A program made the position numbers and the translations under genes. Under the pieces are notes generated by a model, which saw only the letters and a list, made by a program, of their open reading frames with translations, was not told where the DNA came from and made no database searches. Below are positions 35,464 through 56,601 of a DNA stretch of 63,300 nt, piece by piece (position 1 is the stretch's first letter; each line of letters opens with the position of its first letter). Origin of the DNA: Chryseobacterium sp. ISL-6 (lineage in GTDB: Bacteria; Bacteroidota; Bacteroidia; Flavobacteriales; Weeksellaceae); the NCBI RefSeq assembly GCF_018613715.1, contig NZ_JAGGPT010000004.1, forward strand, positions 1 through 63,300. The letters are read 5' to 3'.

Positions 35464-35516
35464 TTCGCTAATGTTGCCACTCTATTTAATTACAAGCATT
35501 CCATTAATAAATCGCT

Positions 35517-35548
35517 AAACCGTGATATAGAATTTTATACCACGGTTT
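35517..35548 (+). terminator. Terminator of the repeat-protein gene
   Basis: AAACCGTG/CACGGTTT outer stem with an additional inner TATA.AATT pairing, 54 bp past the stop, followed by ATTATTT. Confidence 0.75.
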
Positions 35549-35665
35549 ATTATTTACTTTTATTATTATAATCAGTTAAATAAAAAAATAGAATGATTAA
35601 TAATTACAATGTGATTTCTTTAATCCCGTTATAGAAATAGTTCGCACGTAATTTAAGAAAAGTTA

Positions 35666-36095
35666 TTATTTCTTTTGAGAAACGATAAAGCTAACCAGAG
35701 TTCTTCTACTATTTCATCAAGACGATTCTAATCAGTCGTTATGAATCCATGAACACCGTTTTCAACCACTATAAAGTAATTTTGAATATTGAGTTTATCA
35801 AGATTTTTATGAAGATTTTTTGATTGTTTAAGAGGAACAATTTTATCACGGCTCCCCTGTTAAATTAAGGTTGGAACAGCATTGTCTATATAATTGAGAG
35901 GTGATATTGTTTTGAAATATAATACAATTTTTTTTTATCTTTATTGATATTAGATCCTGAAAACCCATTAATAAGTTTTTCTCTCAAATTAACCATTTGT
36001 TTTGAAAATACACCCATTACCCCTATTGGAAATTTCCCAATTCCTGTTAGTAAAAGTTTGTTGATATCTGTTGGGCCATACTGGTCAAAGAACAC
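35666..36095 (-). pseudogene. Esterase gene remnant (C-terminal duplicate)
   Basis: About 430 bp that match the 3' third of the esterase gene at 37893, from its stop codon back to the codons for QFGPTDINKLLLT, with nonsense changes and small indels. The identity extends beyond the stop through 35519 (compare 37748 onward), so the whole 3' end and downstream region was duplicated. Confidence 0.85.
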
Positions 36096-37418: not shown

Positions 37419-37892
37419 GGTTTTATGTATTTAATTAATATTATAAATGTAAATAGTTAAACTTAACCAAAAAATAAAACACCCGTAGTTTTATATAGAT
37501 TAGATTGTAGTAATAAAACTAAATTCAACTCGATATTATATCTCGTATGTAAAAGCAAATTTTCACTCATATGCATTTCACTTGAGATATTAATTTAAGG
37601 AAAATGAGGCATTTAATTATTATAATAGTATTATTAATCAAATAACTGTGAGAGGTTTTAATCTTCACAATATTGACCAATTTATATTTCAAAATACTAT
37701 TTCCAGAACAAAAACTTATTTTCCGAAATAAAGTTGGTTTCTTAACCATGATATAGAATTCTATACCACACCCTTCGTTATTATTTTATCATTATAATCA
37801 GTTAAATAAAAAAAATAGAATGATTAATAATTACAATGTGATTTCTTTAATCCCGTTGTGGAAATAGTTCGCACGTAATTTAAGAAAAGTTA
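37419..37892. other. Gap containing the duplicated esterase downstream region
   Basis: 37746-37892 is nearly identical to 35519-35665. Near 37478, AATAAAACACCCGTAGTTTTATATAG resembles 40118-40142 in its first 20 bases, a further short repeat. No gene. Confidence 0.5.
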
Positions 37893-38999
37893 TTATTTCT
37901 TTTGAGAAACGATAAAGTTAACCAGTTCTTCTACTATTTCATCAAGACGATTCTGATCTGTAGTTTTGAATCCATGAACTCCGTTTTCAACTATTGTAAA
38001 ATAATTTTGAATCTTAAGTTTATTGAGTTTTCTATGAAGTTTCTTGGATTGTTTAAAAGGAACAATTTTATCACTGTTTCCCTGTTGAATTAAGGTAGGA
38101 ACAGCATTATCTATATAATTGATAGGAGATATTGTTTTAAAATATGATACAATTTTTCTTTTATCTTTATTGATATTAAATCCTGAAATCCCATTAATAA
38201 GCTTTTCTCTTAAATTAACTGTTTGTTTTGAAAATACATCCATTATCCCTATTGGAAATTCCCCAATTCGTGTCAGTAATAATTTATTGATATCTGTTGG
38301 GCCAAATTGATCAACTACATAATTAACTTTTGCCGAATATCGTGCAAGCTCAAGGCTCCCTACAAAATCATTGTCATTGGTATAAGCTGACAAAAGTGCA
38401 AGGTGTGCTCCTGCTGAGGTTCCAAAAAGGCCAATATTATTAATATCAAAATGATATTTAACGGCATTTTTTCTTACCCAGCGAATTACATCCTTACAGT
38501 CTTCGATCGGTTTTGGAAAATGTACCGTTTCACTCACAAGTCTATAATCAATGCTGATAACAGCATATTTTTTCTCAACAAGCTTCAAAATTGCATTTTC
38601 AATGTAAGAATTTGCTTGTATCGCTTTATCTCCTTCAACCCAGCCTCCACCGTGAATGTAAACAACTACCGGTAATTTCTCACTTAAACTATTATGGGGC
38701 CTGTAAAGATCCAACGCAATAGATTTCCCATTAATCTCAGTTTTATATATGATGTTCTCTAATGCTAATGTCTTTTTTGGTAAAAGAATACTTTTAGAAA
38801 CTTTTGTCTGCTCTATGTTTTGTGCAAAGGATAAACTGAATAAAAATAAACACAGAACGAAAAAAAGGTTTTTAAAAACAATTATTTCCCGGTACTCTTG
38901 TACTTGCTGGTGACTTTTTTGTTCAATTTTGTCTATTTCAATTCCTGCTTTTTTTTCAGACAAAATTTGATCACTTATTTTAAGTAGATAATTTCTCAT
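37893..38999 (-). CDS. Alpha/beta hydrolase (esterase/lipase, BD-FAE-like)
   Basis: 368 residues from ATG at 38999; an ATG at 39056 would add 19 residues. Hydrolase signatures: oxyanion-hole YIHGGGWVEGDKA, nucleophile elbow FGTSAGAHLALLS, a late Asp in QGNSDKIVPF and His in NGVHGFK. A signal-peptide-like stretch (NLFFVLCLFLFSLSFAQN) begins only about 40 residues in, preceded by a charged helix (ISDQILSEKKAGIEIDKIEQ), so the N-terminus may be a fusion or the true start is non-canonical. Likely a periplasmic carboxylesterase. Promoter copy G is upstream. Confidence 0.85.
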   Translation of the reverse strand: MRNYLLKISDQILSEKKAGIEIDKIEQKSHQQVQEYREIIVFKNLFFVLCLFLFSLSFAQNIEQTKVSKSILLPKKTLALENIIYKTEINGKSIALDLYRPHNSLSEKLPVVVYIHGGGWVEGDKAIQANSYIENAILKLVEKKYAVISIDYRLVSETVHFPKPIEDCKDVIRWVRKNAVKYHFDINNIGLFGTSAGAHLALLSAYTNDNDFVGSLELARYSAKVNYVVDQFGPTDINKLLLTRIGEFPIGIMDVFSKQTVNLREKLINGISGFNINKDKRKIVSYFKTISPINYIDNAVPTLIQQGNSDKIVPFKQSKKLHRKLNKLKIQNYFTIVENGVHGFKTTDQNRLDEIVEELVNFIVSQKK

Positions 39000-40332: not shown

Positions 40333-40647
40333 TTATTGACCCTTCAATAATTGATCATAGTCCGTCCTAGTTTTCCGACGACCATCCATTATCCAGTCAA
40401 GTAATTCCTTTTTTGAAAAATATAGTTGTTTTCCTTTTTTACAAACGGGAATTTCCCGTCTACTCACTTTACTGTATATGGTAGAAACTGTTAAATTAAT
40501 TAATTGTGATGCCTCTCGGATATTCAAAAAATCTTTGCTATCCTTTAATTGATGTTCACTTTCCAAAAAAAAAATTCTAAGAGACTCTAGCTGATCTTCT
40601 ATCCTTTCCAGTACAAAAGGAATTTGTTCAAAGGTGTACTTATTCAT
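40333..40647 (-). CDS. Excisionase-type HTH protein
   Basis: 104 residues from the ATG at 40647, chosen over an ATG 72 bp upstream because residues before it look non-coding. A coiled N-terminus is followed by a MerR/HTH_17 winged helix: FLNIREASQLINLTVSTIYSKVSRREIPVCKKGKQLYFSKKELLDWI. This is typical of excisionases accompanying Bacteroidota tyrosine integrases. It lies 190 bp downstream of the integrase gene on the same strand. Confidence 0.8.
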   Translation of the reverse strand: MNKYTFEQIPFVLERIEDQLESLRIFFLESEHQLKDSKDFLNIREASQLINLTVSTIYSKVSRREIPVCKKGKQLYFSKKELLDWIMDGRRKTRTDYDQLLKGQ

Positions 40648-40837
40648 ATCTTTTTTATAATAGTAAGTAGTTCTTTGACAGACCCTAAAAAAATGGCCAG
40701 TGATGGTATAAATAGGCACTTCATGGAACTTTAAGCAATCTATATAAAATCTTCCTGATTCGATCTATAAAACGGCAAAGCACGACAACGACAGAGTTTT
40801 ATAAGTTATTTTTAAAGCTAAATCGGTTTCAAATCAC

Positions 40838-41965
40838 TCAAATTATTAATCGAGTAGTTCGTAAGAGAATTCTACCAGAAGCATCTTTCTTAAGATTATC
40901 TACGATCTTAGCATAGATCTCTGTTGTTTTTACACTTTTATGACCAAGCATTTTCGAAACGGTGTAAATTGATGTTCCTGAAGCAATTTGTAAGGTAGCA
41001 AAAGTATGTCGAAAGCAATGAAAGGTAAAATGCCTTTTAATACTGGCATTTAATAACCAATCAGAAAGAAGATTATCAACGTCCGTATACTTAAGACCTT
41101 CAAACACTAAATCCTCTTCATTCCCAAATTCTCCTAATAACTCTATAGCCTGATCTGAAGCAGGATAATATTCTACTGTTTCTGTTTTTTTCTGATCATA
41201 AAATATATAATAATCTCCTTTCTTACCACGTATTTCATTCCATCTTAGTTTTTTGACATCACAAAATCTAAAACCCGTTAGCGCTGAAAATAAGCCGGCA
41301 CGCTTTACTAAAAGTGATTTACATGGGCTATCTGCCAAATTTTGCAGTTCATCCATAGATAAAAATTCTCTACGGGTATCTTTCGGTGTTATACCATCAA
41401 CTATGTGACCCAGATCCTTAGTAAGATATCCTAATTTATAAGCTCTTTTCAACGTTGCTTTAAATTTAGCAAAATAACTTACCGCTGTATTATGTTTGAT
41501 TTTTCTTTTAGCTCGACCCACTGCAGGAGAGGATAAAAGATACTCAGAAAATTTTTCACAAAATCGTTCATTTAAAGATGAAAAAGGAAATATTACCCCA
41601 GCAAACTCTTTAAAATATACTAAAGACATTCGCCAATTATGATAGTTCGTGCCATCTTTTTTTTTAACCATTTCATCATAAAAATCCACAAAATTACTTT
41701 CATAGATTGAGTCAGATAAAAATTCATATTTTCTGTTTTGAATATCCAACTGTCTTTTTGCCCTAATATGCTCCGCTAATGCCAAGGTTTCTCTATTGTG
41801 TTCTTTTTCAAGTTCATTCTTAGCCTTAGAATAAATATAAATTTTCAAATAAAATCTTCTTTTCAACTTACCAGTATCAATAGCTATAATAGGTGGGTAA
41901 ATATCTAGATACAACGTCTGTCTACCTTTACTGATCGTTTTTTTCCTCAATGTAACTTTACCCAT
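40838..41965 (-). CDS. Tyrosine recombinase (site-specific integrase)
   Basis: A 375-residue Bacteroides-CTn-type integrase. An arm-binding N-terminus (LRKKTISKGRQTLYLDIYP) and a SAM-like core-binding domain precede the catalytic domain. Catalytic residues: Arg in LTGFRFCDVKKL, HCFRHTFAT (His-x-x-Arg), the GHK of LGHKSVKTTEIYAKI and its nucleophile Tyr. All are present, so it is probably functional. It overlaps the translation signals of the upstream HTH gene (1 bp apart). Confidence 0.93.
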   Translation of the reverse strand: MGKVTLRKKTISKGRQTLYLDIYPPIIAIDTGKLKRRFYLKIYIYSKAKNELEKEHNRETLALAEHIRAKRQLDIQNRKYEFLSDSIYESNFVDFYDEMVKKKDGTNYHNWRMSLVYFKEFAGVIFPFSSLNERFCEKFSEYLLSSPAVGRAKRKIKHNTAVSYFAKFKATLKRAYKLGYLTKDLGHIVDGITPKDTRREFLSMDELQNLADSPCKSLLVKRAGLFSALTGFRFCDVKKLRWNEIRGKKGDYYIFYDQKKTETVEYYPASDQAIELLGEFGNEEDLVFEGLKYTDVDNLLSDWLLNASIKRHFTFHCFRHTFATLQIASGTSIYTVSKMLGHKSVKTTEIYAKIVDNLKKDASGRILLRTTRLII

Positions 41966-41966
41966 C

Positions 41967-42554
41967 TTAATATTTTAATATATTAAAACTTTCTAATAAT
42001 CTATCCACTTCTTTTTTTGAAACATATACAAATTTCCCTTTACTGATTTTATGTATATTATTTTTTTTCAATAAGTTATATAGTGTTGTAATAGAAATTC
42101 TGTAAATAGAACTGATATCACCCATATTATAATAATCTTCTAATTTAAATTTCTTTGTTTTTGTAAGATCGTTATTTTTTGGAGGAACCATAAAAACAGG
42201 ATCTCTGAAAATATTTTCTATTTCTTTCCTATGTATTCTGATCTTTCTTTCTGAAAGATTTACAGCATATAACCTACCTGTATCAATCATTGAATAGACT
42301 GTTCTTGGTGAACTCTCCAATAATTCCGCAGCTTCTTTGACAGTCAAATAATTTTTTTTGTCAACATCAACTTTAGGTTCACCTTTTACTTTTTGAACCA
42401 TTAAATTGTTGAATTGAATTTGGTCACTCTTTAATTTTTGCTTGTAAGCCAACCTATTACAAGGATGACTACAATATTTTGTAACGGTAGTTTTTGCAAC
42501 AAACTCCTCTCCACAGTGTTGACAAATTCTTTTAATAATCATATTAGAACTCAT
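41967..42554 (-). CDS. Zinc-finger plus double-HTH regulator of the integrase module
   Basis: A 195-residue protein. The N-terminus is a four-Cys zinc knuckle ([15 protein letters not shown]). Then come two excisionase-type helix-turn-helix domains: [27 protein letters not shown].. at about 70-115 and [27 protein letters not shown].. at about 140-190. It is translationally linked to the integrase. It probably controls excision and could bind the phased repeats at 42611-42680 immediately upstream. Confidence 0.8.
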
Positions 42555-42610
42555 TGATCTTATATTTAAAGTTAATTACAAATCACATTTTCTTGAATCT
42601 GGCGACTATA

Positions 42611-42680
42611 AGTGTCGTTAGATGTCATTTGATGTCGTTAAGTGTAATTAAGTGTAAATAGGTGTCGTTAAGCGCAATAA
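42611..42680. repeat. Seven 10-bp phased tandem repeats
   Basis: Consecutive 10-bp units AGTGTCGTTA, GATGTCATTT, GATGTCGTTA, AGTGTAATTA, AGTGTAAATA, GGTGTCGTTA, AGCGCAATAA, all on one face of the helix. They begin 57 bp before the HTH gene start. Probably binding sites for the HTH/excisionase or integrase arm sites. Confidence 0.75.
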
Positions 42681-43312
42681 ATTCCCCTTGAATTTTGGAC
42701 AGGCCAATTTATCTTATTTGAGGAACAAATAGGGAACAAAAATAAACATAAAAAAGAATATTAAATCCAAACATGTCAAAACACACCACATAATAAACAC
42801 TTAATTATTAAGGTTTTATACATGATTTCTTTGTTTTAGTTTGCGTATTTATTTACCGATACAGTATCTATAGAAGTCTTTATTGATGGTAGTTTACGTA
42901 GCGCAAGGTGTACAAAAGTGGTACAAGATTAAGGTGCTGTAACATCTTTTTCAAAAAGATCCCCTCTCAATTTTCGTCTTCGTAAAGCAGCATGAATAAA
43001 GGATTTTTAATTTTTTATTAAATTTAACATTGATAATTTCTAAACTTTTGTACGACGTAAGTACACCTTATTAGACATATCTTAATACTAATCAATTAAA
43101 TACAAGATGTTAGCGGATTTTAATTATGTGTAAATATAAAAATATCAACATAATATTTCGCTATGTGATTTTTGTGCTTCATTGATAACACACTGATAAG
43201 CCTTAAAAAATTTTATACTAACTATAACTAAATTGCGATTACAATGTATTCGCAATTGGAAAATGTAGTAAAATTGGCGAATAATTCAATCTGCATTTTG
43301 GAAAAATCGCCA
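42681..43312. other. Gene-free gap next to the integrase module
   Basis: AT-rich. It holds one perfect palindrome ATCTTTTT-C-AAAAAGAT at 42944-42960 and a GGCGA/TCGCC pair near 43276-43311. No ORF of note. Confidence 0.45.
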
Positions 43313-43344
43313 CCGTACTCCGGTTCTAATTCCTCCAACTCCAC
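43313..43344 (+). other. Possible attachment site: tmRNA/tRNA 3'-end-like fragment
   Basis: CCGGTTCTAATTCC then TCCAACTCCAC resembles the T-arm plus acceptor end of a tmRNA or tRNA, and an intrinsic terminator follows immediately. No complementary 5' half lies upstream, so it cannot be a full RNA gene. Integrases often leave such displaced 3' ends. The T-stem pairing is poor, so the identification is tentative. Confidence 0.3.
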
Positions 43345-43346
43345 AC

Positions 43347-43383
43347 AAACCCCTGTAAATTATTGATTTACAGGGGTTTTTAA
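43347..43383 (+). terminator. Very strong intrinsic terminator
   Basis: A perfect 14-bp stem (AAACCCCTGTAAAT/ATTTACAGGGGTTT) with a 5-nt loop and trailing T run, directly after the RNA-like fragment at 43313. Confidence 0.85.
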
Positions 43384-43523
43384 TTTCGGGTACTAATTTA
43401 GGCGCCATTTTGGCTAACGATTAAAATGCTCATTACTTTATCAAATAAACATCATTTTTTAGAAATACTTATTTCTTAAAAAATAGAGGCTGTCCAAGAG
43501 GGTAGCCTCCTATTATAAAAAAA

Positions 43524-43958
43524 TCAATCCCTCATCACCTTCCTCACCAGCTCCTCAATCACCCTACTCTTCTCCCGCTCCGTTTCCAACAATCGCTCAT
43601 ACAGCTTTCTGTTCTCCTCATAGGATTCCAACAGTTTGTCCAGTGGATTGAACGTAGGCTGATAATTCAATGAACTGGCGATCAACGTTGAATTATCGTT
43701 ACTGGTATTGTTATAAGTATTAGCGATGATATTAAAGAGAGCATCCTCCGAAAAGTTCTTCAATGCTTCCAATGGAATTTCCAGAGCTTTGGCGATGGAC
43801 TCCAGTTTGTGGTCTTCGAGTTCTTCGGCATTTTCCAGCAGGGATACTTTCTGCTGGCTGACACCTAGAAGGTCGGCCAGAGTTTCCTGTTTCATGCCGC
43901 GCATTTCCCTGATTCTTGCAATATTTCTCCCGATATGTTTCTGTACTGTAGCTGCCAT
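43524..43958 (-). CDS. XRE-family transcriptional regulator
   Basis: A 144-residue protein. HTH_3 domain at the N-terminus (IGRNIARIREMRGMKQETLADLLGVSQQKVSLLEN), a variable middle, then a C-terminal coiled coil (LLESYEENRKLYERLLETEREKSRVIEELV). It is divergent from the sigma-factor gene across a 297-bp gap. A degraded relative lies on the other side of the dead-nuclease gene at 46280. It could repress the sigma/nuclease operon. Confidence 0.88.
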   Translation of the reverse strand: MAATVQKHIGRNIARIREMRGMKQETLADLLGVSQQKVSLLENAEELEDHKLESIAKALEIPLEALKNFSEDALFNIIANTYNNTSNDNSTLIASSLNYQPTFNPLDKLLESYEENRKLYERLLETEREKSRVIEELVRKVMRD

Positions 43959-44104
43959 GTGTTAATGATTTAAAACAAAGATATAAAATTATAAGATATT
44001 CTGCCAGTCCGGTTTTTCACATTTTCCGTTTTGTAATATACACCTGTCAGTGGTTCGCTACCCAGATTTCTATAGTCAACTTGCTGAAAAATTTCACCAC
44101 CACA

Positions 44105-44241
44105 TCACCAGAAACTGACGGATATGATGAACTCTTTTGCCGTAGGTACATTGTAATGCGTGTCTTCCTGAGCTAATTGCAAGCTGCTCAGGAGCACCTT
44201 ATGATCATCAACCTCAGCAATTTCTTTCAGCAATAATTTAG
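44105..44241 (-). pseudogene. Coding-like remnant between the XRE and sigma genes
   Basis: The minus strand reads LAKLLLKEIAEVDDHKVLL then SSLQLAQEDTHYNVPTAKEF, ending in a TGA at 44105, with no start codon upstream within the gap. Composition is protein-like. Part of the same bases forms the perfect stem TCCTGAGC/GCTCAGGA (44166-44193). The family is unknown. Confidence 0.35.
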
Positions 44242-44255
44242 CTAATACACTGCTT

Positions 44256-45071
44256 ATGAAAAGAACAGACTCTTTGCCCCGAATATTGAACGATCATCAG
44301 CTTTATGAACTGCTGAAAAAAGGCAATCCGACATCTTTAGAACATATTCATTTACGCTACAAAAGACTTCTTTTCTGGCTCGGAAAGCAAATGCTTGAGG
44401 ATGATTTTGTAGTGGAAACGCTTGTTCAGGATACCTTCCTCAAACTTTGGCTACACCGTGATTCCATTGAAACTCCCAATCATATTCTTGGCTTTTTACG
44501 GTTTGTTTTGAAGAGGGATTGTATATCGTATTTCAATGCTCCAAAAAATAAATTCACTCGATTAATTGCTTCCCTTGAACGTTTTGAGAATTATCAGGAT
44601 TATCTTGCAGGTTACGATCCTCTGCATGATAAAGAGCATCTACTTAGCCAGGAATCCGATCAAAAAGATTTTGACGAAGTTAAAAAGGTTTTAAGCGTAC
44701 TGAACCCCAAAAGAAAACACCTGATTGAACTTTGCCTTGAATATGGCTTTCAGTACAAAGCAATCGCAGAGGCAATGGGAAGCAGCGTGACAGGAATAAG
44801 CAATGAGGTGAGCAGAGCCATAGATGATCTTCGGAAAATTCTTAATAGAAGTTCTTTTGAAAAGCTAAAGGAGAGAACTTCAGATAAGGAAGAGCTGGCA
44901 GAAAAACTCAGCAGTCAACAACTCGAGATTATGAAAAGAAGGTTTGAACAGAAATCTTCTTTTTCGGTAATTGCCCGAGAACTCAAATTACCTGAAAAGG
45001 AAGTACATCGGGAATTTCTGTATGCCTATCAATATCTACAAAATCAAAACACTTCTGAAATACCTCTTTGA
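44256..45071 (+). CDS. Sigma-70/ECF-family sigma factor with an apparent second region-4-like domain
   Basis: 271 residues. Region 2 (about 12-95): LYELLKKGNPTSLEHIHLRYKRLLFWL, then VVETLVQDTFLKLW and LGFLRFVLKRDCISYF. Region 4 (about 148-195): VLSVLNPKRKHLIELCLEYGFQYKAIAEAMGSSVTGISNEVSRAIDDLRKI. Then an unusual 65-residue extension with a second region-4-like HTH: LSSQQLEIMKRRFEQKSSFSVIARELKLPEKEVHREFLYAYQYL. It ends 1 nt before the dead-nuclease ORF, implying translational coupling. I infer that it is recruited to DNA by the downstream RNA-binding protein. Confidence 0.85.
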   Translation: MKRTDSLPRILNDHQLYELLKKGNPTSLEHIHLRYKRLLFWLGKQMLEDDFVVETLVQDTFLKLWLHRDSIETPNHILGFLRFVLKRDCISYFNAPKNKFTRLIASLERFENYQDYLAGYDPLHDKEHLLSQESDQKDFDEVKKVLSVLNPKRKHLIELCLEYGFQYKAIAEAMGSSVTGISNEVSRAIDDLRKILNRSSFEKLKERTSDKEELAEKLSSQQLEIMKRRFEQKSSFSVIARELKLPEKEVHREFLYAYQYLQNQNTSEIPL

Positions 45072-45072
45072 A

Positions 45073-46167
45073 ATGGAAAAATCCACCATTACACTTACCC
45101 GAAAAATTCAGCTGCTGATCGATCTCCCTGCAAATGAAAAAAACGAGATGTGGGAAAAACTCTACCGGTATCAGAATCGCTGTTTCCGGGCGGCTAATTT
45201 AATTGCTTCCCATCTGTATGTCCAGGAAATGATCAAGGATTTCTTTTACCTCACAGAAGAAATCCAATACAAGCTGGCCGATGCAAGCAAAGATGAAATG
45301 GGAATGTTCACACGTTCGAAAACAAACACAACTGCTCGAATGGTATTTGACCGTTTCAAAGGAGAGATCCCCACCGATATTCTGGGAAGCTTGAACAATA
45401 CGATTCAATCAACCTTTTCTAAAAATAAAGCCGACTACTGGCAGGGATCAAAATCACTACGAAACTTTAAAAAAGACATCCCAATTCCACTTCCGGTCAA
45501 ATGCATCAGCAAAATGAAGTATGATTCTCAAAAAAAAGCGTTTTGCTTCAACATGTTTGCTATTCCTGTTAAAACGTATTTAGGTAAAGACTTCTCTGAT
45601 AAGCGGCTAATAATGGAACGCCTCTTAAGAGAAGAGATAAAACTTTGCACATCGCAAATACAACTAAAAGCCGGGAAAATCTATTGGCTTGCAGTATTTG
45701 AATTTGAAAAGGAAGAGCACCTTTTAAAACCCGAAATAATCGCCGAAGCTTCCCTGTCTCTGGAACATCCTATAGTAGTAAAAGCCAACAATGTGCGAAT
45801 CAATATTGGCTCGAAGGAGGAGTTTTTATACCGAAGGCTTGCGATCCAGGCAAGTCAAAAAAGGATTCAAACCGGCATCGCCTATGCCCGTTCCGGAAAA
45901 GGAGCCAAACGCAAACAAAAGGCACTTTATAAAACAGAAAATTTGGAGAGCCGGTATGTAAGCCATCGGCTTCATGTGTACAGTAGGAAGCTTATCGATT
46001 TCTGCATCCAGCAACAGGCAGGTACACTTATTCTTAAAAATCAGGAAGACAAGATAGGAATTGCAAAAGAACAGGAATTTGTGCTTCGTAACTGGAGTTA
46101 TTATGAATTGCAGACCAAAATAAAATACAAGGCAGAAAAAGCTGGTATCGAATTGATCATTGGATAG
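45073..46167 (+). CDS. Nuclease-dead TnpB/Cas12f-like protein, coupled to a sigma factor
   Basis: 364 residues from the ATG directly after the sigma stop. The C-terminal 130 residues match the TnpB/Cas12f RuvC frame: a basic helix (YARSGKGAKRKQKALYK), SRYVSHRLHVYSRKLIDF, then the strand GTLILKNQEDKIG (316-329) and NWSYYELQTKIKYKAEKAGI. The RuvC-I Asp (usual GVDLGI) is absent from the equivalent strand IVVKANNVRINIG. The RuvC-II Glu (usual IVLEDL) is Lys in LILKN. The protein stops at AGIELIIG, before the zinc finger and RuvC-III Asp. It should bind guide RNA and DNA but not cut. A structured RNA follows at once. Confidence 0.82.
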   Translation: MEKSTITLTRKIQLLIDLPANEKNEMWEKLYRYQNRCFRAANLIASHLYVQEMIKDFFYLTEEIQYKLADASKDEMGMFTRSKTNTTARMVFDRFKGEIPTDILGSLNNTIQSTFSKNKADYWQGSKSLRNFKKDIPIPLPVKCISKMKYDSQKKAFCFNMFAIPVKTYLGKDFSDKRLIMERLLREEIKLCTSQIQLKAGKIYWLAVFEFEKEEHLLKPEIIAEASLSLEHPIVVKANNVRINIGSKEEFLYRRLAIQASQKRIQTGIAYARSGKGAKRKQKALYKTENLESRYVSHRLHVYSRKLIDFCIQQQAGTLILKNQEDKIGIAKEQEFVLRNWSYYELQTKIKYKAEKAGIELIIG

Positions 46168-46179
46168 CTGAAAAAAAAT

Positions 46180-46270
46180 TACGAGGGTGCTTGTACACCC
46201 GTAGGGTGAGGTCATCAGCACTCACTAAATACTCTAGTAGTATATACAACGGCGTGGGTTCCTTTTTTTT
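46180..46270 (+). ncRNA. Candidate guide RNA (omega-RNA-like) of the dead nuclease
   Basis: Starts 12 nt after the stop of the dead-nuclease gene. Three successive hairpins: TAC..GGGTG/CACCC GTA (46180-46203, 2-nt bulge), GTGAG/CTCAC (46206-46225), ATACT/AGTAT (46229-46243). The scaffold ends TATACAAC, like the ..CAAC handle of Cas12f crRNAs and TnpB omega-RNAs. The next 12 bases, GGCGTGGGTTCC (46251-46262), would be the guide, and T8 would terminate transcription. No CRISPR repeats are nearby. Confidence 0.65.
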
Positions 46271-46279
46271 GACTATTAT

Positions 46280-46618
46280 ATGGAACAGAAAATAAATCAG
46301 GGAAGAAACATAAAACGTTTTAGAGAAATGTTGGGGATAAAGCAGGAAGCTTTAGCTTTTGATCTAGGAGAGGATTGGAATCTGAAGAAAATTTCTTTAC
46401 TGGAACAAAAGGAAGTGATTGAAAATCCCTTGCTACAAAGAATTTATGAGTATTAAGATTAAGAATTCCTGTAGAAGCTTTTCAGAATTTTGATAAAGAA
46501 CAGGCGATTAATATTATTTCTAATACTTTTCATGATACTCAAGGATTGATAAATTATAGTCAACTTTCAACAATAATCCTATCGACAAATTGATTCAGTT
46601 ACATGAAGAAAAAATAGC
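46280..46618 (+). pseudogene. Broken XRE-family regulator
   Basis: Opens with an intact HTH (INQGRNIKRFREMLGIKQEAL), then hits stops. Sequence in shifted frames continues as RIPVEAFQNFDKEQAINIIS and NPIDKLIQLHEEKIASYD. This parallels the gene at 43524 (IPLEALKNFSEDALFNIIAN, NPLDKLLESYEEN). At least two frameshifts. Its ATG follows the T run of the guide RNA by 9 bp. Confidence 0.8.
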
Positions 46619-46768
46619 ATCATATGATTATTATTTTCTGTATTTTCTACAACTGTCTTCTGATTGTTGTTGTTCTCTGCAACCTGTTCAGTCATTTCAG
46701 TACTTTGAGTATTTTCCTGATTACGGGATTTTCATTCGATTTTTCTAACTGTTCATTTATATAATCGG
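46619..46768 (-). pseudogene. Frameshifted fragment of an unknown mobile-element gene
   Basis: The minus strand reads INEQLEKSNENPVIRKIL then, after a shift, NTQSTEMTEQVAENNNNQ and TVVENTENNNHMM, low-complexity Asn/Gln-rich tails typical of conjugative-element accessory proteins. It follows the ArdA gene on the same strand. Confidence 0.35.
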
Positions 46769-47134
46769 TTAAATAACATCGCCATAAACACTTTGAAAAT
46801 CCATTTTCCCAACACAATCAACATAAGCCTCAAAAACTTCTAAATCATAGCCAGAAGAGCTTATTTGATCCATTATTTCGAATATCTCTTTAGATAGATA
46901 ACATTCACTAATTAATCCAAGCTTTTCAAATAATTCGCAATGCTCATAATCTTGAAACATCAACTCTGGATCATCTTCATCATTATGAAGGTTATGCATT
47001 GCTTCTAATAGTTCATCATAATCTGAATAATCCGATAGATTGAGCCATTTACCATAGAGGCTTCCGTTATTGTACTTGTGATAAGTTCCTACATAGATAC
47101 AAGCAGTATCAAGACAATTTGTTAAATTTGCCAT
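46769..47134 (-). CDS. ardA: ArdA-like antirestriction protein, short
   Basis: 121 residues. N-terminal ArdA signatures: ACIYVGTYHKYNNGSLYGKWLNLSDYSDYDELLEAM and DDPELMFQDYEHCE. ArdA proteins mimic bent B-DNA to block type I restriction enzymes during conjugation and are usually about 165-180 aa. This one stops after YVDCVGKMDFQSVYGDVI, lacking the C-terminal third. It may be truncated or a short natural variant. It indicates a conjugative-element background. Confidence 0.8.
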   Translation of the reverse strand: MANLTNCLDTACIYVGTYHKYNNGSLYGKWLNLSDYSDYDELLEAMHNLHNDEDDPELMFQDYEHCELFEKLGLISECYLSKEIFEIMDQISSSGYDLEVFEAYVDCVGKMDFQSVYGDVI

Positions 47135-47715: not shown

Positions 47716-48363
47716 CTATTTTTTTAAATATTTAAAAAACTTCAAATCTTCCTGATTTTTCACTTCTTTAATTGAGCCATTATATAATAAAACCGTGCGT
47801 GTAGCAATATCTAAAATTTCTGTATAATTATGATCGGTTATTATTATCCCTTTATTTTTGGATTCTTTTACGATACAGTCTTTAAGCTCATTTATATGGA
47901 TGGGATCAATATTTTTAAATGGCTCATCAAGCAATATATATTCTGCACTAGAATATATAATCAGTAATATTTCTATAATTCTTTTTTGTCCACCAGATAA
48001 TTGATTTGGTTTACTATTTAGAAATGGCTTTAACAAGGGGTGATTTATCAAGAAAGCTAAATTTTCTTTATTACAAAAGCTGTGAATAATAGATTTGATT
48101 TTAATATGAGAAGGAAGAAAATTAAATTGAGGAAGATATTTTATAACACCATTATTGTCAAAGGTATTTTTGATAAGTTTTTCATTAACCTTAATATATT
48201 TTTGATCAGCAGAAACTGAGCCAAAAATGATTTTTAATAATGTAGATTTTCCCATACCATTAGAACCTAACAACCCTATAATTTCACCCTTGCTACATGA
48301 TAGAAAAATATCATGCAATATGGTTTTGTTACCGAAAGTTTTTATTATACTATCTATTTTCAT
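47716..48363 (-). CDS. ABC transporter ATPase of the lanthipeptide cluster
   Basis: A 215-residue ATPase: Walker A GSNGMGKST, signature QLSGGQKRIIEI, Walker B YILLDEPFKNIDP, H-loop ITDHNYTEILDI. Compact, with a single domain. It forms a divergent operon with the small membrane protein at 48375 and faces the precursor gene, so it is most likely an immunity (LanF-like) or export component for the lanthipeptide. Confidence 0.88.
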   Translation of the reverse strand: MKIDSIIKTFGNKTILHDIFLSCSKGEIIGLLGSNGMGKSTLLKIIFGSVSADQKYIKVNEKLIKNTFDNNGVIKYLPQFNFLPSHIKIKSIIHSFCNKENLAFLINHPLLKPFLNSKPNQLSGGQKRIIEILLIIYSSAEYILLDEPFKNIDPIHINELKDCIVKESKNKGIIITDHNYTEILDIATRTVLLYNGSIKEVKNQEDLKFFKYLKK

Positions 48364-48747: not shown

Positions 48748-48993
48748 ATGAAAAAGAAGAAAGTTTTAAAGTTTTCAAAAGAAACAGTAACAAAATTAGA
48801 CAAAAATTCTCAAAAACTTATTAATGGGGGTAAGTTAATTATGACTGGCGGATGTACAGATGGATGTGGTCCACTTACAAAAACTCATTGGAATTGTACA
48901 GAAGCTACTTGTACTGATGATTGCGATTCTGCAATTAATTGTGCTCCTACATCTAAATCATTAGATGGGCTTACTTGTACTTATTATGGATAA
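48748..48993 (+). CDS. Class I lanthipeptide precursor (LanA)
   Basis: 81 residues. Leader MKKKKVLKFSKETVTKLDKN then SQKLINGG (Gly-Gly at 27-28) is the form seen in flavobacterial class I lanthipeptides. The core holds 7 Cys (GGCTDGCGPL, WNCTEATCTDDC, INC, LTCTYYG) and many Thr/Ser for dehydration and ring closure. A second Gly-Gly directly before the first Cys offers an alternative cleavage point. It is followed by LanC and split-LanB genes. Ring pattern cannot be inferred. Confidence 0.9.
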   Translation: MKKKKVLKFSKETVTKLDKNSQKLINGGKLIMTGGCTDGCGPLTKTHWNCTEATCTDDCDSAINCAPTSKSLDGLTCTYYG

Positions 48994-49041
48994 AATAAGT
49001 TATTTAAAATAACAAGTTATTACTAAACAAAAAATTATTAG

Positions 49042-49062
49042 GAGGCTGCTTTTATCAGCCTC
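49042..49062 (+). terminator. Partial terminator between precursor and modification genes
   Basis: GAGGCTG/CAGCCTC stem with T5 after it, 49 bp past the precursor stop. Placed to let a highly transcribed precursor mRNA end while some read-through feeds the enzyme genes. Confidence 0.8.
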
Positions 49063-49089
49063 TTTTTAATTGAATAAATTTTTTAGAGC

Positions 49090-50283
49090 ATGTCATTAAT
49101 TATTTCGAATAATAAGCAGAAAGAAATAGAAAATTTATTATCATTCATAGCCGAAGGAATAGTAAGTAAAAATAACAATCCAAATCTGGGCTTACTATCA
49201 GGAGCAATGGGAGAGACATTATTTTTATATGAATACTCACAAATAAACATTCACTATAAAAAATATGTTTCTAAAAATATTGATTACATATTTGAATCTA
49301 TTGAAAACGGGAATGTTCATCACACATATTGTAATGGATTACCAGGCATTTGTTTAGGGATTGATTATATTGAATCAAAAAGAGATAAGGATTATAAAAA
49401 TTTTGATTTTGTAGATGATCAGATTGATGAATGGCTTATTGAACAATTCAATGTTTGTATTGAAGACGGTAATTACGACTTCCTACACGGAGCAATTGGA
49501 ATAGGAATTTATTTTTTACAAAAATTTAAAAAAGGAGATATCAAATCGAAAAAAATCTTAAATATTTTACTAAAATTCCTATACGATTCTGCAATAAAAG
49601 AAAATGGTATTATAAAGTGGAAAAATCATAATAATATTGTGAATATATCTTTATCTCATGGCATGACAAGCATAGTACTTTTTTTATTAGAGCTATCTAA
49701 GCTAAATATTAAATTTGATTATGATATTGAGCAACTTGTCAAAGGGGCAATAAGTTTTATTTTAGCACAAGAAATTGATCTAAAAACATATAATTCCTTT
49801 TATCCTTTTACATCTATTGAACAGCAAAAAGATAAAATACACGGAAGTAGACTATCTTGGTGCTATGGTGATCTTGGTATTGCAATAATGCTCAGAAAAT
49901 CTTCAGAAATTTTTAATCAAACTGCATGGGAAGAAAAATCCAGAGAAATATTAGAATTTTCAACAACAAGAAAGAATAGCAAAGAAACTACAATTGTAGA
50001 TGCAGGAATATGTCATGGCAGTTCTGGAGTGGCATTAATTTTTTACAACGAGTATTTAAAAACCAATAACGAGCATTATGCAAAAACTGCTCAATTTTGG
50101 CTTGATAGAACGCTAGAATATTACAAAGAAGATCCTGAGCATTTTTCAAAAGTTTGTTACGATACCATCACAGGAAATTATATGGCTAATCCAAGTATTC
50201 TTGACGGTACTTCTGGAGTGGGATTAGTTTTGTTATCATTTATAACGAACCAGCTTGATTGGTCAAAATTTTTAACTATTTAA
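49090..50283 (+). CDS. Lanthionine synthetase C-like cyclase (LanC)
   Basis: A 397-residue alpha/alpha-toroid. GLLSGAMGETLFLYEY and LPGICLGIDYIE repeats, then the zinc ligands in SWCYGDLGIA (Cys) and GICHGSSGVALIF (Cys-His), and ILDGTSGVGLVL. It catalyses addition of Cys thiols to dehydroalanine/dehydrobutyrine to form (methyl)lanthionine rings. Its stop is 3 bp from the dehydratase start, so the genes are translationally coupled. Confidence 0.93.
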   Translation: MSLIISNNKQKEIENLLSFIAEGIVSKNNNPNLGLLSGAMGETLFLYEYSQINIHYKKYVSKNIDYIFESIENGNVHHTYCNGLPGICLGIDYIESKRDKDYKNFDFVDDQIDEWLIEQFNVCIEDGNYDFLHGAIGIGIYFLQKFKKGDIKSKKILNILLKFLYDSAIKENGIIKWKNHNNIVNISLSHGMTSIVLFLLELSKLNIKFDYDIEQLVKGAISFILAQEIDLKTYNSFYPFTSIEQQKDKIHGSRLSWCYGDLGIAIMLRKSSEIFNQTAWEEKSREILEFSTTRKNSKETTIVDAGICHGSSGVALIFYNEYLKTNNEHYAKTAQFWLDRTLEYYKEDPEHFSKVCYDTITGNYMANPSILDGTSGVGLVLLSFITNQLDWSKFLTI

Positions 50284-50285
50284 AC

Positions 50286-52487
50286 ATGAAAAAAAAATAT
50301 TCTGTATCGGATAATTTTATAATAAGATACCCTTTTTTTTCTTTCACATACAACAATGGGTGGGAGCTTGATGATATTTATAATTGTAATGAATTTCATT
50401 CTCCTTTATATATAGCCTCTCCTGTACTTTTAGATGAATTTAAAAAGCTTAAAGGCGGAAAGATCAAAGATGTAAAATCAATAGATAAAATAAACATTTC
50501 CTTATATAAATACTGGAGCAGAATAAAGTCCAGACCTACTCCTTTTGGTTTATTTTCGGGGGTTTCTTTAGGTGAAATTAATGACCATAATGATCTTATT
50601 TTCAGTGAAAATTCTATCTCAAAAATTAGAATGGATATGAAATATTTATTTGATGCTTTTACACATCTTAAAGAAATTCCTGAAATAAAAAGAAAAACAC
50701 TTTTTTATCCTAATGACAGTATTTATTCATTTGATGGTAAATATCGTTTTGTAGAAAAAAAATATTTTAAAGATTCTATTAAATATGAAATATCTGCTAC
50801 TGATAAAACCTCATCTTTAAAAAAGATTTTATCAGTAGCTAAAAATGGTGTAAACTTCAAGGAAATTATTGATCTTCTTGTGTCAGAAGGATATGATGAG
50901 GATGAAGATTTATATGAATATATTCATAATATAATTGATTCTCAAGTCTTAATTAGTGAGCTTGAACCTGCATTAATTGGGGAAGATTATTTGGAAAAAA
51001 TTATTAAAACTTTTGAAAAAAGAAATATAGATCATGATATTTTTATTAAGCTACAAAATTTAAAAAATAAATTAGATCACTTGAATAAACGAAATACTGT
51101 TATAGAAATTGAGGATCTTTTACAAATAAATGAGATTGTTAAAAATATCGATATTCCTTTTGACAGTAAATATCTCATTCAAATCGATTCTACAAAGCAG
51201 CTACAATCCTCATATATAAATAAAGAATATACGGATGAGCTAATAAATGCTATATCTTTTTTATCAAAAATAGGATTAATAAAGAATGAAAATGAAGATT
51301 TGGAAAGCTTTAAATCTACTTATCAGGAAAAGTATGAAAGTGAAGAAATATCTTTACTACAAGCACTTGATCCAGAAATTGGAATTGGTTATCCTGTTAG
51401 TAAGAATGTAGGAAAGGAATATAGCAATTCATTAATAAAGAATTTCCGCCTTGTTAATAACAGTATTAAAAAAGGGCAAAAAAAATGGGATCAGGTACAA
51501 GATATTTTATTGGAAAAAATTATTGAGTCAAAGGAAAATAAAAATGATGAAGTCGTAATTTCCGAAAAGGACTTCCCATTCTTTGACATGATTACAACAA
51601 ATATGCCTTCCGTCATTTACTCTATATTTGAAGTGATAAATGACCAACAAAAGAACGCATCAATTTATGTAAAATTTGTAGGCAATGGATCAGGTGCAAA
51701 ATTAATGAGCCGATTTTCAAGGCTTGATAAAAACATTGAAGAGTTTGTAAAAAAATTAATCAAAATAGAACAAAGTAAAAGCAATTTTGAACTTGTAGAA
51801 TTATCACATTTATCGGAATCCCCGAGAGTTGGAAACATTTCGATAAGACCAAAGCTTACTGAATATGAGATCACATGCCTGTCTAGGTCTAATTTAGATC
51901 AAAAATTTGTTATTCCTTTATCTGATATTATGGTATCAATTAAAAGAAATAAAATCATTCTAAAATCTAAGAAATTAAAAAAAGAAATTTTTCCAATTCT
52001 TACTACAGCTCATAATTTTAGAGATTCTCCTTTTCCTGTATATAGATTTTTATGTGATATACAGTATCAAAACCTTCTTTTTAATGGATTAATGTTAAAC
52101 CTTAACTTTAATCTGAATTATATACCGAGAATAAGATATAAAAATACAATCTTGCGATTAGCAAGTTGGGAAGCTGCAAAAAATGAGCTTACAAACATAT
52201 TTGAAAATGAGTTAGATGATATTTCAAAAATGGAAAACATTTCAACATGGATTGGAAATAGAAAAATACCACAATATGTTTTGATTTCAGAAGATGATAA
52301 TGAAATGTTTATTGACTTTAACAATATAAATAGTGTTAATGTATTTTTATCTCTATTAAAGAAGAAAAACAAACTTAAATTAGTCGAATTTTTATTTAAT
52401 GAAAAAACAGCTATTATAAAAGATAGTTTTGGAAATTCCTACCGAAATCAAATAATTATACCTTTGTTTAAAAATGATGAAGAATAG
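50286..52487 (+). CDS. Lanthipeptide dehydratase, glutamylation domain (split LanB, large subunit)
   Basis: 733 residues from ATG at 50286, chosen over one at 50259 that would overlap LanC by 25 bp. LanB N-terminal features: YRYPFF-like start (IIRYPFFSFTYNNGW), ISLYKYWSRIKSRPTPFGLFSGVSLG, later SPRVGNISIRPKLTEYEI and PRIRYKNTILRLASWE. It transfers Glu from Glu-tRNA to Ser/Thr of the precursor. The elimination domain is a separate gene that overlaps by 14 bp. Confidence 0.92.
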   Translation: MKKKYSVSDNFIIRYPFFSFTYNNGWELDDIYNCNEFHSPLYIASPVLLDEFKKLKGGKIKDVKSIDKINISLYKYWSRIKSRPTPFGLFSGVSLGEINDHNDLIFSENSISKIRMDMKYLFDAFTHLKEIPEIKRKTLFYPNDSIYSFDGKYRFVEKKYFKDSIKYEISATDKTSSLKKILSVAKNGVNFKEIIDLLVSEGYDEDEDLYEYIHNIIDSQVLISELEPALIGEDYLEKIIKTFEKRNIDHDIFIKLQNLKNKLDHLNKRNTVIEIEDLLQINEIVKNIDIPFDSKYLIQIDSTKQLQSSYINKEYTDELINAISFLSKIGLIKNENEDLESFKSTYQEKYESEEISLLQALDPEIGIGYPVSKNVGKEYSNSLIKNFRLVNNSIKKGQKKWDQVQDILLEKIIESKENKNDEVVISEKDFPFFDMITTNMPSVIYSIFEVINDQQKNASIYVKFVGNGSGAKLMSRFSRLDKNIEEFVKKLIKIEQSKSNFELVELSHLSESPRVGNISIRPKLTEYEITCLSRSNLDQKFVIPLSDIMVSIKRNKIILKSKKLKKEIFPILTTAHNFRDSPFPVYRFLCDIQYQNLLFNGLMLNLNFNLNYIPRIRYKNTILRLASWEAAKNELTNIFENELDDISKMENISTWIGNRKIPQYVLISEDDNEMFIDFNNINSVNVFLSLLKKKNKLKLVEFLFNEKTAIIKDSFGNSYRNQIIIPLFKNDEE

Positions 52488-53376
52488 AAAATATGCACCT
52501 GGATCAGAATGGCTTTATTTTAAAATTTATACGGGTTTTAAAACAGCAGACAAACTATTATTGAACAAAATTTATCCTTTAATTACAGATTTAAAACGAA
52601 GAGAATATATCAAGCAATTCTTTTTTATAAGATATTCAGATCCTCACTATCATTTAAGAGTTAGATTACACATTGCTGATCAAAAATTTTTGGGAGAAAT
52701 AATGGTATTATTTAATAAAACATTCTCTAATTTGCTAAATAACAACATTATATGGAAAATTCAAATTGATACATATAATCAGGAAATTGAAAGATATAAT
52801 ATTCATTTAATTGATCACATTGAGAATTTTTTCCATATAGATAGTGAATATATTATAAAAATTTTAAAAACTGTACATACTAAATATAATAATGACGAGG
52901 ATGTAAAATGGGTTATTTGTTTAAAGCTCATAGACAGCACTTTAGATTTATTTTGCTCGGAGGAGGAAAATAAGCTAACTATAATCAGTGCCATGAGCGA
53001 TTCTTTTAAAGATGAGTTTGGGTTTAATATGTATAATTCTAAACAATTTAATGAAAAATACCGAACAAATAAAGCCAAAATAGAAGCCATAGTATCTGGT
53101 GTAGATATTATTGAAGAATATAGTTATGAGAGTTTGTATAATATTTGCAAAAAAAGGTATAGAGATTTAACATTGACTACATCATCAATTAAGGAGATAC
53201 AATTAAAAAAACAACTATCTCAGGATATTGTAATTGATCTTATTCACATGATGATCAATAGATTGATTCCTGCCGAGAATAGACTGCATGAGTTGATATT
53301 ATACGATTTTGTAAAAAGATACTACAGTAGCATTATAGCAAGAAAGAATAACAAGAAACAGATAAAAAAAGCATAA
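52474..53376 (+). CDS. Lanthipeptide dehydratase, elimination domain (split LanB, small subunit)
   Basis: A 300-residue SpaB_C/thiopeptide-type domain: GSEWLYFKIYTGFKTADKLL, FFFIRYSDPHYHLRVRLH (the R-x-x-D-P-x-x-H-L-R-x-R hallmark), and a long helical C-terminus. It removes glutamate from glutamylated Ser/Thr to make dehydro residues. The ATG lies inside the last codons of the large subunit gene, so the two are made as a pair. Confidence 0.9.
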   Translation: MMKNRKYAPGSEWLYFKIYTGFKTADKLLLNKIYPLITDLKRREYIKQFFFIRYSDPHYHLRVRLHIADQKFLGEIMVLFNKTFSNLLNNNIIWKIQIDTYNQEIERYNIHLIDHIENFFHIDSEYIIKILKTVHTKYNNDEDVKWVICLKLIDSTLDLFCSEEENKLTIISAMSDSFKDEFGFNMYNSKQFNEKYRTNKAKIEAIVSGVDIIEEYSYESLYNICKKRYRDLTLTTSSIKEIQLKKQLSQDIVIDLIHMMINRLIPAENRLHELILYDFVKRYYSSIIARKNNKKQIKKA

Positions 53377-54774: not shown

Positions 54775-55410
54775 TTATTCGTTCTTTTTTGCTTCAAACC
54801 CATCCTTAAACCTCAAAAAATCCTCTGCTTTTTTAGGATTATTTTTAATCCAAATTTGCATTACTTTGGTATTTTCTTGCAGTATTTTTATCTCATCTTC
54901 ATCGTAGATTTTTTTTCCTTCATCAGCAATTTCATTTAAAATATCTTGGCGCAGTTCACTTTTGGCTTTGATACTTTCTTTGTACCATTTGGTTGCAAAG
55001 TTGATGGAAATAATCAGAATTAAAGTGGCCAAAATAAATATCGCAATTCCTGCCTTAATGAACTTTACTGTTGTTTTTAATTGTCTTTTAAAATCCTCTA
55101 AATGACCTAGCGTTTCTTGTGAAAAAAAGGTCTCAAATTTAGTTGGAATCATCATTGCAAACTCCTCTCTTTTTAATTGTTCTGTCTTAGAAAATTCTTT
55201 TATTTCGTCATAAATTTTGTTTTCGTTTTTGATGTAAAATTGTACTCTATCAATGATTGTATATAAATATTCAACAACGCCTTTAATTTCAGCATTAGAT
55301 TTCATATTCTTCTCATTTGAAGTAATATTTCTTTCATTTGATTTTATTACATTTTCTAAAAGTTCCATTCCGCTAATTTTAGATTCATCGTTTTGTTTTT
55401 GATTTTCCAT
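54775..55410 (-). CDS. Mobilisation-operon protein with membrane helix and coiled coils
   Basis: 211 residues. A charged, Asn/Lys-rich helical N-terminus (LENVIKSNERNITSNEKN), a single membrane segment (IKAGIAIFILATLILIISINF, about 118-138) and a charged C-terminus (IKNNPKKAEDFLRFKDG). It lies 27 bp downstream of the relaxase gene. Proteins of this type commonly follow MobB in Bacteroidota elements, possibly linking the relaxosome to the envelope. No enzymatic motif. Confidence 0.7.
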   Translation of the reverse strand: MENQKQNDESKISGMELLENVIKSNERNITSNEKNMKSNAEIKGVVEYLYTIIDRVQFYIKNENKIYDEIKEFSKTEQLKREEFAMMIPTKFETFFSQETLGHLEDFKRQLKTTVKFIKAGIAIFILATLILIISINFATKWYKESIKAKSELRQDILNEIADEGKKIYDEDEIKILQENTKVMQIWIKNNPKKAEDFLRFKDGFEAKKNE

Positions 55411-55437
55411 TTTCTTTGATTTTTAAATTGTTACTAT

Positions 55438-56601
55438 TTATCTTGATTTTCTTTTCTTTTTCCAGATTTCATCATCGTTTTGAGCCACATAGCTTGGCTT
55501 TAATAAGCCTTCTAATAGTTCACCTGCTATTTCTATTACGCTTTCATTTTTTGCAGATTTTGAAGGAATAGCGTTGTTGTTAATATTTTTCGTTACTTCA
55601 TTTCCTATCATTAATTTTACTAGATCTTCAAAATCAGAATCGATTGCCGAAAGAGAAAAACCAACATTTTTCTGGAAAAAGAAGCCGTTTTTTTGTTGAT
55701 TTAATGGTGTTCTATCAACTTTATTAATCCAAACATCTTGAATTTCATTTTTTTGATTGGCTTTAAATTCTCCATCATATTGAATCTTTACAGAATATCC
55801 TTTCTGTTCAATATAATCCCGAAATCCTTTCAAATTTGCGGAGGTTCTTTTGGCTTCACGAACTGCATTTTTTACTTCAAACAGAGATTTTATTTCAGAA
55901 GTTTTTAATTGATTGGAGATTTCAGATAATTTGTAACCTGCTTTATAAATCCTTTCTGTTTGATGATTTTTGTCCTTTTCCATCACAATTCGCATCCCCG
56001 AAATACCCTCCCTGACATTTGAAGACAATTGAACTTCAAAACCTCTTTCTTTCATTTTTAAAATAAGAGAATCAAAATTATCTACGGCTTTCAGGGCTTC
56101 TGTAAGGTTTTTCAGCATTTCTTCCTTTTTTCGAATTCCTATTTCAACATCGGTTAATAAGCCTTTTTCTTTACAGACTTCTCGAACGGCTTCTCCAAAT
56201 CTTCTTCCGATGTCGTGTGATTTTACTGTACATTTCCCCGAAATATCAATCCTGTTCACGATAAAATGAATGTGTTTTTGTTTGGTGCTATTATGAATAT
56301 CCAATCGAAATTGGTTGTTTGCTGTTACGCCAATTTTATCTAAAGCTTTGATTGCAATTTCTGTAAATTCTTCATCCTTTAAATTTATGCCGATTTCGTC
56401 CGGTTGAGAAATGTAGCCTGTTAAAGCCCATTTTTTCACTTTAGGATTTCGGTCGGCTACGATTTTCATTTCCTGAAATTGACCTTCCGCAGTGTAACTC
56501 AAAAGATAATTTGAAGACACCATTTCTGCTGTTCCTTTATCATTTCCATTATATTCCAAAGCGATTTTTGTAATGGTTCTTGTGGTGGCAGAATTATTCA
56601 T
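55438..56601 (-). CDS. Relaxase (MobP/MobB-type, Bacteroidota)
   Basis: 387 residues with the relaxase fold: NYLLSYTAEGQFQEMK, the metal-binding three-His motif in FRLDIHNSTKQKHIHFIVNRID, and GRRFGEAVREVCKEKG. It nicks oriT and pilots single-stranded DNA into a conjugation channel encoded elsewhere. Overlaps the MobC gene by 8 bp. Confidence 0.9.
   Translation of the reverse strand: MNNSATTRTITKIALEYNGNDKGTAEMVSSNYLLSYTAEGQFQEMKIVADRNPKVKKWALTGYISQPDEIGINLKDEEFTEIAIKALDKIGVTANNQFRLDIHNSTKQKHIHFIVNRIDISGKCTVKSHDIGRRFGEAVREVCKEKGLLTDVEIGIRKKEEMLKNLTEALKAVDNFDSLILKMKERGFEVQLSSNVREGISGMRIVMEKDKNHQTERIYKAGYKLSEISNQLKTSEIKSLFEVKNAVREAKRTSANLKGFRDYIEQKGYSVKIQYDGEFKANQKNEIQDVWINKVDRTPLNQQKNGFFFQKNVGFSLSAIDSDFEDLVKLMIGNEVTKNINNNAIPSKSAKNESVIEIAGELLEGLLKPSYVAQNDDEIWKKKRKSR

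Follow-up and report, generated by a model that had tools for sequence, protein, structure and literature searches.

Where would a sigma factor be sent if its partner were a Cas12f that no longer cuts, and what would guide it there? The question is raised by a three-part unit in a 63,300-nucleotide (nt) stretch of DNA from Chryseobacterium sp. ISL-6 (contig NZ_JAGGPT010000004.1, positions 1 to 63,300; hereafter ‘the window’). On the plus strand, the open reading frame (ORF) of a 271-amino-acid (aa) sigma factor (44256..45071), with Pfam Sigma70_r2 and r4 matches, is followed after 1 nt by that of a 364-aa Cas12f/TnpB-like protein (45073..46167), and then, 14 nt past the stop codon, by a guide RNA scaffold with ACAAC as its 3' end (46182..46250; covariance model R2, E 7e-20, the window being one of the 24 rows from which the model was built). 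The guide, GGCGTGGGTTCC, lies directly 3' of the scaffold (46251..46262) and runs into eight T (46263..46270). An initial annotation, made from the sequence alone, had named these three parts, and each was found where it had been placed. The three parts are best understood as a system in which a dedicated sigma factor recruits RNA polymerase under the guidance of an RNA; further, we consider it likely, with a probability of roughly 0.7, that the unit activates transcription of operons controlled by a conserved leader RNA, the unit itself included.

Judged by alignment, the two proteins are of a known kind, that of the nuclease-dead Cas12f (dCas12f) and RpoE of Protein Data Bank (PDB) entries 9n9c and 9n9q. 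The Cas12f-like protein is colinear with 9n9c_A, ‘Nuclease-deactivated Cas12f’ (residues 1-364 against 1-365, E 7.9e-164), with further matches to 9n9m, 9n9o and 9n9q, and the sigma factor matches 9n9q_C, ‘RpoE’, also over almost its full length (residues 17-263, E 4.5e-82); homologues of both are chains of one solved entry, 9n9q. To other Cas12f and TnpB chains (9nzo, 9nzr, 8hr5, 9nzp and others) the window protein is related in sequence over the RuvC part, and its match to the NCBIfam family guided_TnpB (E 5e-16, 59 bits) falls below the curated cut-off of 100. The Asp of RuvC-I and the Glu of RuvC-II are the catalytic residues of such nucleases. In contrast to these chains, the window protein, aligned to 9nzo (‘Cas12f Effector’) and 9nzr (‘Cas12f Nuclease’), has Ser227 at the position of the RuvC-I Asp (VDLG) and Lys322 at that of the RuvC-II Glu, and because the alignment stops at residue 414 of 506, the C-terminal zinc-finger/RuvC-III part is missing; the intact RuvC active site that marks a CRISPR-Cas12f nuclease is absent. 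Both catalytic losses and the early end had been annotated, and the alignment bears them out. The annotation had also mentioned reports of dead Cas12f homologues linked to sigma factors, and the PDB indeed holds a dead Cas12f with its RpoE; its suggestion that the compact form without a zinc finger might be new does not stand, since the solved 365-aa homologue shares its length and its end.

Four copies of the unit are present in the host genome, with protein identities of 88-100% to the window copy, and 60 further loci come mostly from Chryseobacterium and neighbouring genera, Leeuwenhoekiella and Mesonia being the distant cases. An intact frame of exactly 364 codons is found in 53 of these 64 loci; among the other 11, some frames are cut or frameshifted and others differ only at the matched ends. 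Measured against the window copy, the ratio of non-synonymous to synonymous substitution rates (dN/dS) has a median of 0.054 for dCas12f (range 0.03-0.62, 51 comparisons) and of 0.16 for sigma (range 0.11-0.23, 53 comparisons), values that place the dCas12f loci under purifying selection and support the annotators' argument for selection rather than decay. The linkage with sigma is kept in relatives: of the 63 other loci, 61 include upstream DNA (L063 and L071 do not), and in 59 of these a sigma gene stands directly upstream of dCas12f, with a broken frame in L059; in L073 and L074 no sigma gene was found within 1.5 kb upstream. Among 59 genomes, that of the host included, dCas12f (E <= 1e-20) and the guide RNA are present in the same nine.

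The guide is nearly the same wherever the unit occurs. The layout of scaffold, ACAAC and guide goes beyond chance, being conserved among 61 distinct scaffold sequences, including that of the window (24 of the 61 make up guide RNA alignment A3), and the guide GGCGTGGG is found in 60 of the 64 loci (59 by script, plus L020, whose scaffold the script misses). Beyond its eighth base the guide varies, mostly between C and T, and the host's C15 copy reads GGCGTGGGTTTC. The exceptions are L034, which has lost the segment, and L063, L066 and L068, from distant genera, each with a guide of its own; within the nine dCas12f genomes, 14 of the 15 guide RNAs read GGCGTGGG. A locus-specific, variable guide is ruled out by this near-constancy: the annotated guide-like RNA, with its scaffold ending in ACAAC, its segment and its T8, is there, but the segment had wrongly been called variable. 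Two loci carry three tandem scaffolds, with guides TGAGCGGTTTTC, GGGGCGGTTTTC and GGCGTGGGCTC in L026 and AGAGCGCCTTTC, GGGGCGGTTTTC and GGCGTGGGCTC in L046, the GGCGTGGG guide being the third in each; as tandem scaffolds end in different segments, the segment is, by its sequence, exchangeable as expected of a guide, and yet constant in most copies. Apart from these, one guide RNA gene (L196, G016:C22:504406-504486), whose guide GGCGTGGC is one G shorter, lies away from the single dCas12f locus of its genome.

What, then, does so constant a guide match? In the 5.2-Mb host genome the pattern GGCGTGGGYTC occurs six times and its reverse not once; three of the six are the guides of C18, C19 and C20, and the other three lie ~170 nt upstream of the sigma genes of the C15, C18 and C19 copies, in a conserved stretch preceded by a divergent small gene (of helix-turn-helix (HTH) type in C19 and C15) and, by eye, by a palindrome and a promoter-like TAnnTTTG box. 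At these leader sites a G precedes GCGTGRG, and in most copies that same G is the first base of the guide. Many dispersed targets in the host were also considered: GGCGTGRG has 36 sites against 26 for the reversed pattern, and little excess is left once units and leaders are removed. Counted over all loci, the leader stands upstream of the sigma-dCas12f operon in 44 of 64 (43 by a narrower pattern, plus L048, where it lies ~380 nt from sigma).

Covariation suggests that the leader is a structured RNA with two mutually exclusive folds, a ‘rod’ and a terminator. Of 39 distinct leaders, drawn from 46 in all (two of them the susCD leaders of Mesonia and Leeuwenhoekiella), 24 make up alignment A2, which leaves out L025 and L067, both degenerate, and 13 near-duplicates. 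The rod has 28 pairs, with 99.4% of cells paired and 12 pairs changed on both sides, against at most 43% paired in slid versions. In the terminator fold, in which the segment matched by the guide pairs with the 3' tail before the T run, 95.6% of cells are paired and five pairs are double-changed, slid versions reaching at most 54%. For both folds, none of 500 shuffles reached the paired-cell and double-change counts; since related sequences can beat shuffles without any structure, the slid versions offer the safer control. Three of 500 rod shuffles, but 486 of 500 terminator shuffles, attained the observed number of further pair types, a measure that therefore lends the terminator no support. 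Given that the terminator fold pairs the matched segment with the 3' tail, the guide corresponds to the 5' arm of what is predicted to be a terminator in competition with a second fold. A terminator with a competing fold recalls the attenuators and riboswitches of Rfam, and yet the leader matches no Rfam family: there was no match at the gathering cut-off for the window and three other copies, nor at E values up to 1 for L171, L172, L242, L248 and L133, for which only the unrelated DUF805b was returned. A conserved TCTAAGC element, mostly 15-55 nt after the leader terminator (L171, L172, L006 and others), is complementary to GCTTAGA on the leader's 5' side, and in L134 both elements are changed together, to GCTTTGA and TCAAAGC; because for 63 of 80 leaders over 5% of the shuffles attained the score of this pairing, we keep it as an observation only.

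The leader extends well beyond the unit. With covariance model R1, five leaders were found in the host genome, namely three before units, one degenerate and one, C22:45248, before an operon of susC, susD and an S9 peptidase. Across the 59 genomes the model gave 99 leader matches (E <= 0.01) in 38, the host's included, of which 78 were classified, the weakest being left out, by what lies downstream in stretches of differing length: sigma-dCas12f in eight, SusC within the stretch in 22, a small ORF only in 29 (without a Pfam family in the one scanned) and something else, or a cut sequence, in 19. A divergent ORF of at least 55 aa stands in front of 63 of the 78 leaders; of eight such proteins scanned, five pass a Pfam HTH cut-off (L006, L008, L133, L134 and L218), L132 and L171 are weakly HTH-like and L176 shows no such match, so an XRE gene before the leader is not universal. 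In seven of the nine dCas12f genomes a further leader reads GGCGTGGGCTC, identical to the guides over at least the first 8 nt and with mostly C/T differences in the rest, and in six of the nine SusC lies downstream of it. What can be read from the sequences themselves is thus the family membership of the proteins, the guide layout, the leader sites, the covariation of two folds and two gene orders, leader-susCD and leader-sigma-dCas12f, both usually preceded by a divergent small gene, mostly of XRE/HTH type. Divergent relatives of the leader (L242-L259), of which several among those inspected have GGCGTGGGC and CCACGC-T runs, lie before genes of other kinds, which by eye resemble operons of conjugative elements and genes for large RHS-like proteins.

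Where the guide differs, a matching site was in some cases found in a comparable setting. The Mesonia guide GCGTGGGTTCTCTTAT resembles GCGTGGGCTCTCTTAT, on another contig, in the leader of a separate HTH-leader-susCD locus, and the Leeuwenhoekiella guide GCGTGAGTAAACTTAT resembles GCGTGGGCTTACTTAT, again at a separate locus of this order; the L066 guide has a 16-nt match 85 nt before the start of susC in another Leeuwenhoekiella genome. For the array guides of two genomes, degenerate matching is near chance (22 matches against 24 reversed), and one match outside the guide genes (L094/L132) adjoins an HTH-like gene in a leader-like setting. Guide 2 of the L046 array, GGGGCGGTTTTC, matches this site at 12 of 12 positions. 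The site belongs to the 5' arm of the stem that closes a leader-like hairpin (L132), and the HTH-like gene beside it stays below the Pfam cut-offs (best E 1.8e-4); the hairpin, a predicted second leader type, has -41.4 kcal/mol and a z of -2.4, and a T run follows it. From +1 to +2748 relative to the L132 site there are ~2.7 kb without an ORF of at least 60 aa that survives the overlap filter, a stretch lying between the second leader-like hairpin and a pair of genes, one thioredoxin-like and one SusC-like.

Bringing these observations together, we propose the following model. The guide would form an R-loop at leader DNA, within the terminator arm, and so bring sigma and RNA polymerase to the leader, such that transcription would start downstream of the leader terminator; the susCD genes, and the sigma-dCas12f unit, would thereby be activated, with the XRE-type protein presumably repressing the leader's own promoter. 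In its full form, the proposal is of a mobile RNA-guided sigma factor whose single, fixed guide is aimed at the terminator arm in a Bacteroidota leader that is widespread and apparently undescribed, and which starts transcription just past the attenuator and so activates a whole set of leader-susCD operons together, as well as itself by way of a captured leader; this is more tentative, and we would give it somewhat less than even odds.

A number of observations weigh against the proposed activation. The window copy has no leader RNA upstream, whereas the C15, C18 and C19 copies do: only ~40 nt before its sigma gene are common to the C18 and C19 copies, and another XRE-type gene stands upstream. 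The host's susCD leader, C22:45248, reads GGCATGAGCCC and differs from GGCGTGGGCTC at three of 11 positions, all of them wobble-compatible (G-T or U-G). Dead Cas12f occurs in nine genomes, all within the 38 that have leaders, which leaves 29 leader genomes without it; the conservation of the leader therefore cannot be put down to dCas12f, and the leader serves some other function. In one dCas12f genome, G016, the R1 search found only the leader of the genome's own unit. The leaders of L025 and L067 are degenerate, and five loci (L021, and L027, L029, L030 and L036 of one lineage) have an apex that truly mismatches the guide in its first 8 nt. For three of the four extra array guides no 12-nt site was found in a leader, the genome of L066 offers no further site for the guide of that locus, and the reversed control of the Mesonia/Leeuwenhoekiella pattern gave one match in Mesonia and none in the other two genomes. 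Moreover, the base before GGCG varies at leader sites, so that a target-adjacent motif is not established. Under the activation model, the leaderless window copy would work in trans, on the leaders of C15, C18 and C19 and, by wobble-compatible pairing, on the susCD leader C22:45248.

Could the guide act on the RNA instead? Its sense is that of the terminator's 5' arm, which makes it complementary to the 3' arm (..GAGUUCCACGCC), and GGCGUGGGCU might then pair with that arm in the nascent leader and block termination, giving read-through from the leader promoter with the protein as chaperone or carrier. By eye, wobble pairing would still hold for leaders with GTGAG and CATGAG, and the second leader type (L132) shows the same relation of guide to terminator. 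The longer guides of Mesonia and Leeuwenhoekiella continue along the top strand through CTTAT; as both models allow this, the match favours neither. A dedicated sigma factor would, however, be superfluous for such an RNA-level action, and homologues of the dead Cas12f and RpoE share a solved entry; we regard this as unlikely, if the most serious of the alternatives.

A little less probable again is a roadblock, in which dCas12f and its guide would bind inside the leader and block its transcription, the sigma factor serving some other promoter. TldR is a nuclease-dead TnpB relative that uses a guide RNA to repress (PMC13418256), and in that descent and that use of a guide it resembles the window protein. 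The site, moreover, lies ~140 nt downstream of the promoter-like TAnnTTTG box seen by eye. Repression is at odds with the conservation of a sigma gene next to dCas12f and with RpoE as partner in the solved structure: TldR represses, whereas the constant partner here is a sigma factor. TldR is not known to act with a sigma partner. That the guide was copied just once from a leader and the unit is a passenger without regulatory role, as its multiple copies, patchy presence (nine of 59 genomes) and 11 loci without the exact frame might suggest, is very improbable in view of the purifying selection and of the 14 of 15 guide RNAs that keep GGCGTGGG.

Set beside the system of 9n9c and 9n9q, with which it shares two almost fully colinear proteins and the short C-terminus of dCas12f, the present one differs in that its guide is nearly invariant and directed at a leader RNA family, the unit is itself preceded by a copy of the leader, a genome has several copies of the unit, and two loci have tandem guide RNA genes. 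Our literature search for work on dCas12f with sigma factors found nothing on it. Hoffmann, Sternberg and others are said to have described, in 2025, RNA-guided transcription by dCas12f and sigma-E in Bacteroidota, where the targets are susCD and the target-adjacent motif is a 5'-G. As far as we searched, the leader RNA family, the fixed guide against a terminator arm, the self-targeting layout and the tandem guide genes would be new, part of which that report may already describe. If the activation model is true, an RNA-guided sigma factor does more than serve one private promoter: it uses a conserved regulatory leader to control outer-membrane uptake operons as well as the gene that encodes it. 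This would explain how such systems reach their targets in nature and supply, from many genomes, natural pairs of guide and target. It would also reveal, before susCD operons, a family of leader RNAs in which two folds compete, and offer a directly testable switch for how Bacteroidota choose among their many uptake systems.

As to mobility, the T run is the right-hand border of the common DNA for most copies, including that of the window, and the 5' border of the DNA that the window shares with the C18 and C19 copies lies at 44213..44255 (plus strand), as determined by sequence comparison. Among the matches listed for the right flank of the C19 copy, none was a clean empty site. No transposase or terminal repeats were assigned, and ‘mobile’ therefore rests on copy number and patchiness. 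Upstream of the window unit stands the divergent XRE-type HTH gene on the minus strand (43524..43958; HTH_3, E 2.5e-9), at whose position other copies have different small genes, mostly of HTH type. Directly 3' of the guide RNA, 46280-46454 holds what looks like the remnant of a second XRE-like gene, similar by eye to the gene upstream of the L039 copy.

The wider setting is that of an integrative element (40333-47134 and 54775-57067), with a phage-type integrase (40838-41965), an ArdA antirestriction protein (46769-47134), a MobA/VirD2-type relaxase (55438-56601) and HTH-like ORFs among its parts. The window also holds a lanthipeptide-type cluster (48748-53376), which consists of a precursor-like peptide (48748-48993; no Pfam match), a LanC-like protein (49090-50283; LANC_like, E 1e-41) and a LanB-type dehydratase in two ORFs (50259-52487, Lant_dehydr_N, E 1e-108; 52474-53376, Lant_dehydr_C, E 8e-63), with an ATP-binding cassette (ABC) ATPase nearby (47716-48363, minus strand). 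Between 33450 and 38314, finally, there are direct repeats of several hundred bases, in tandem at 33823-34922 and with 89% identity between 35515-36088 and 37741-38314.

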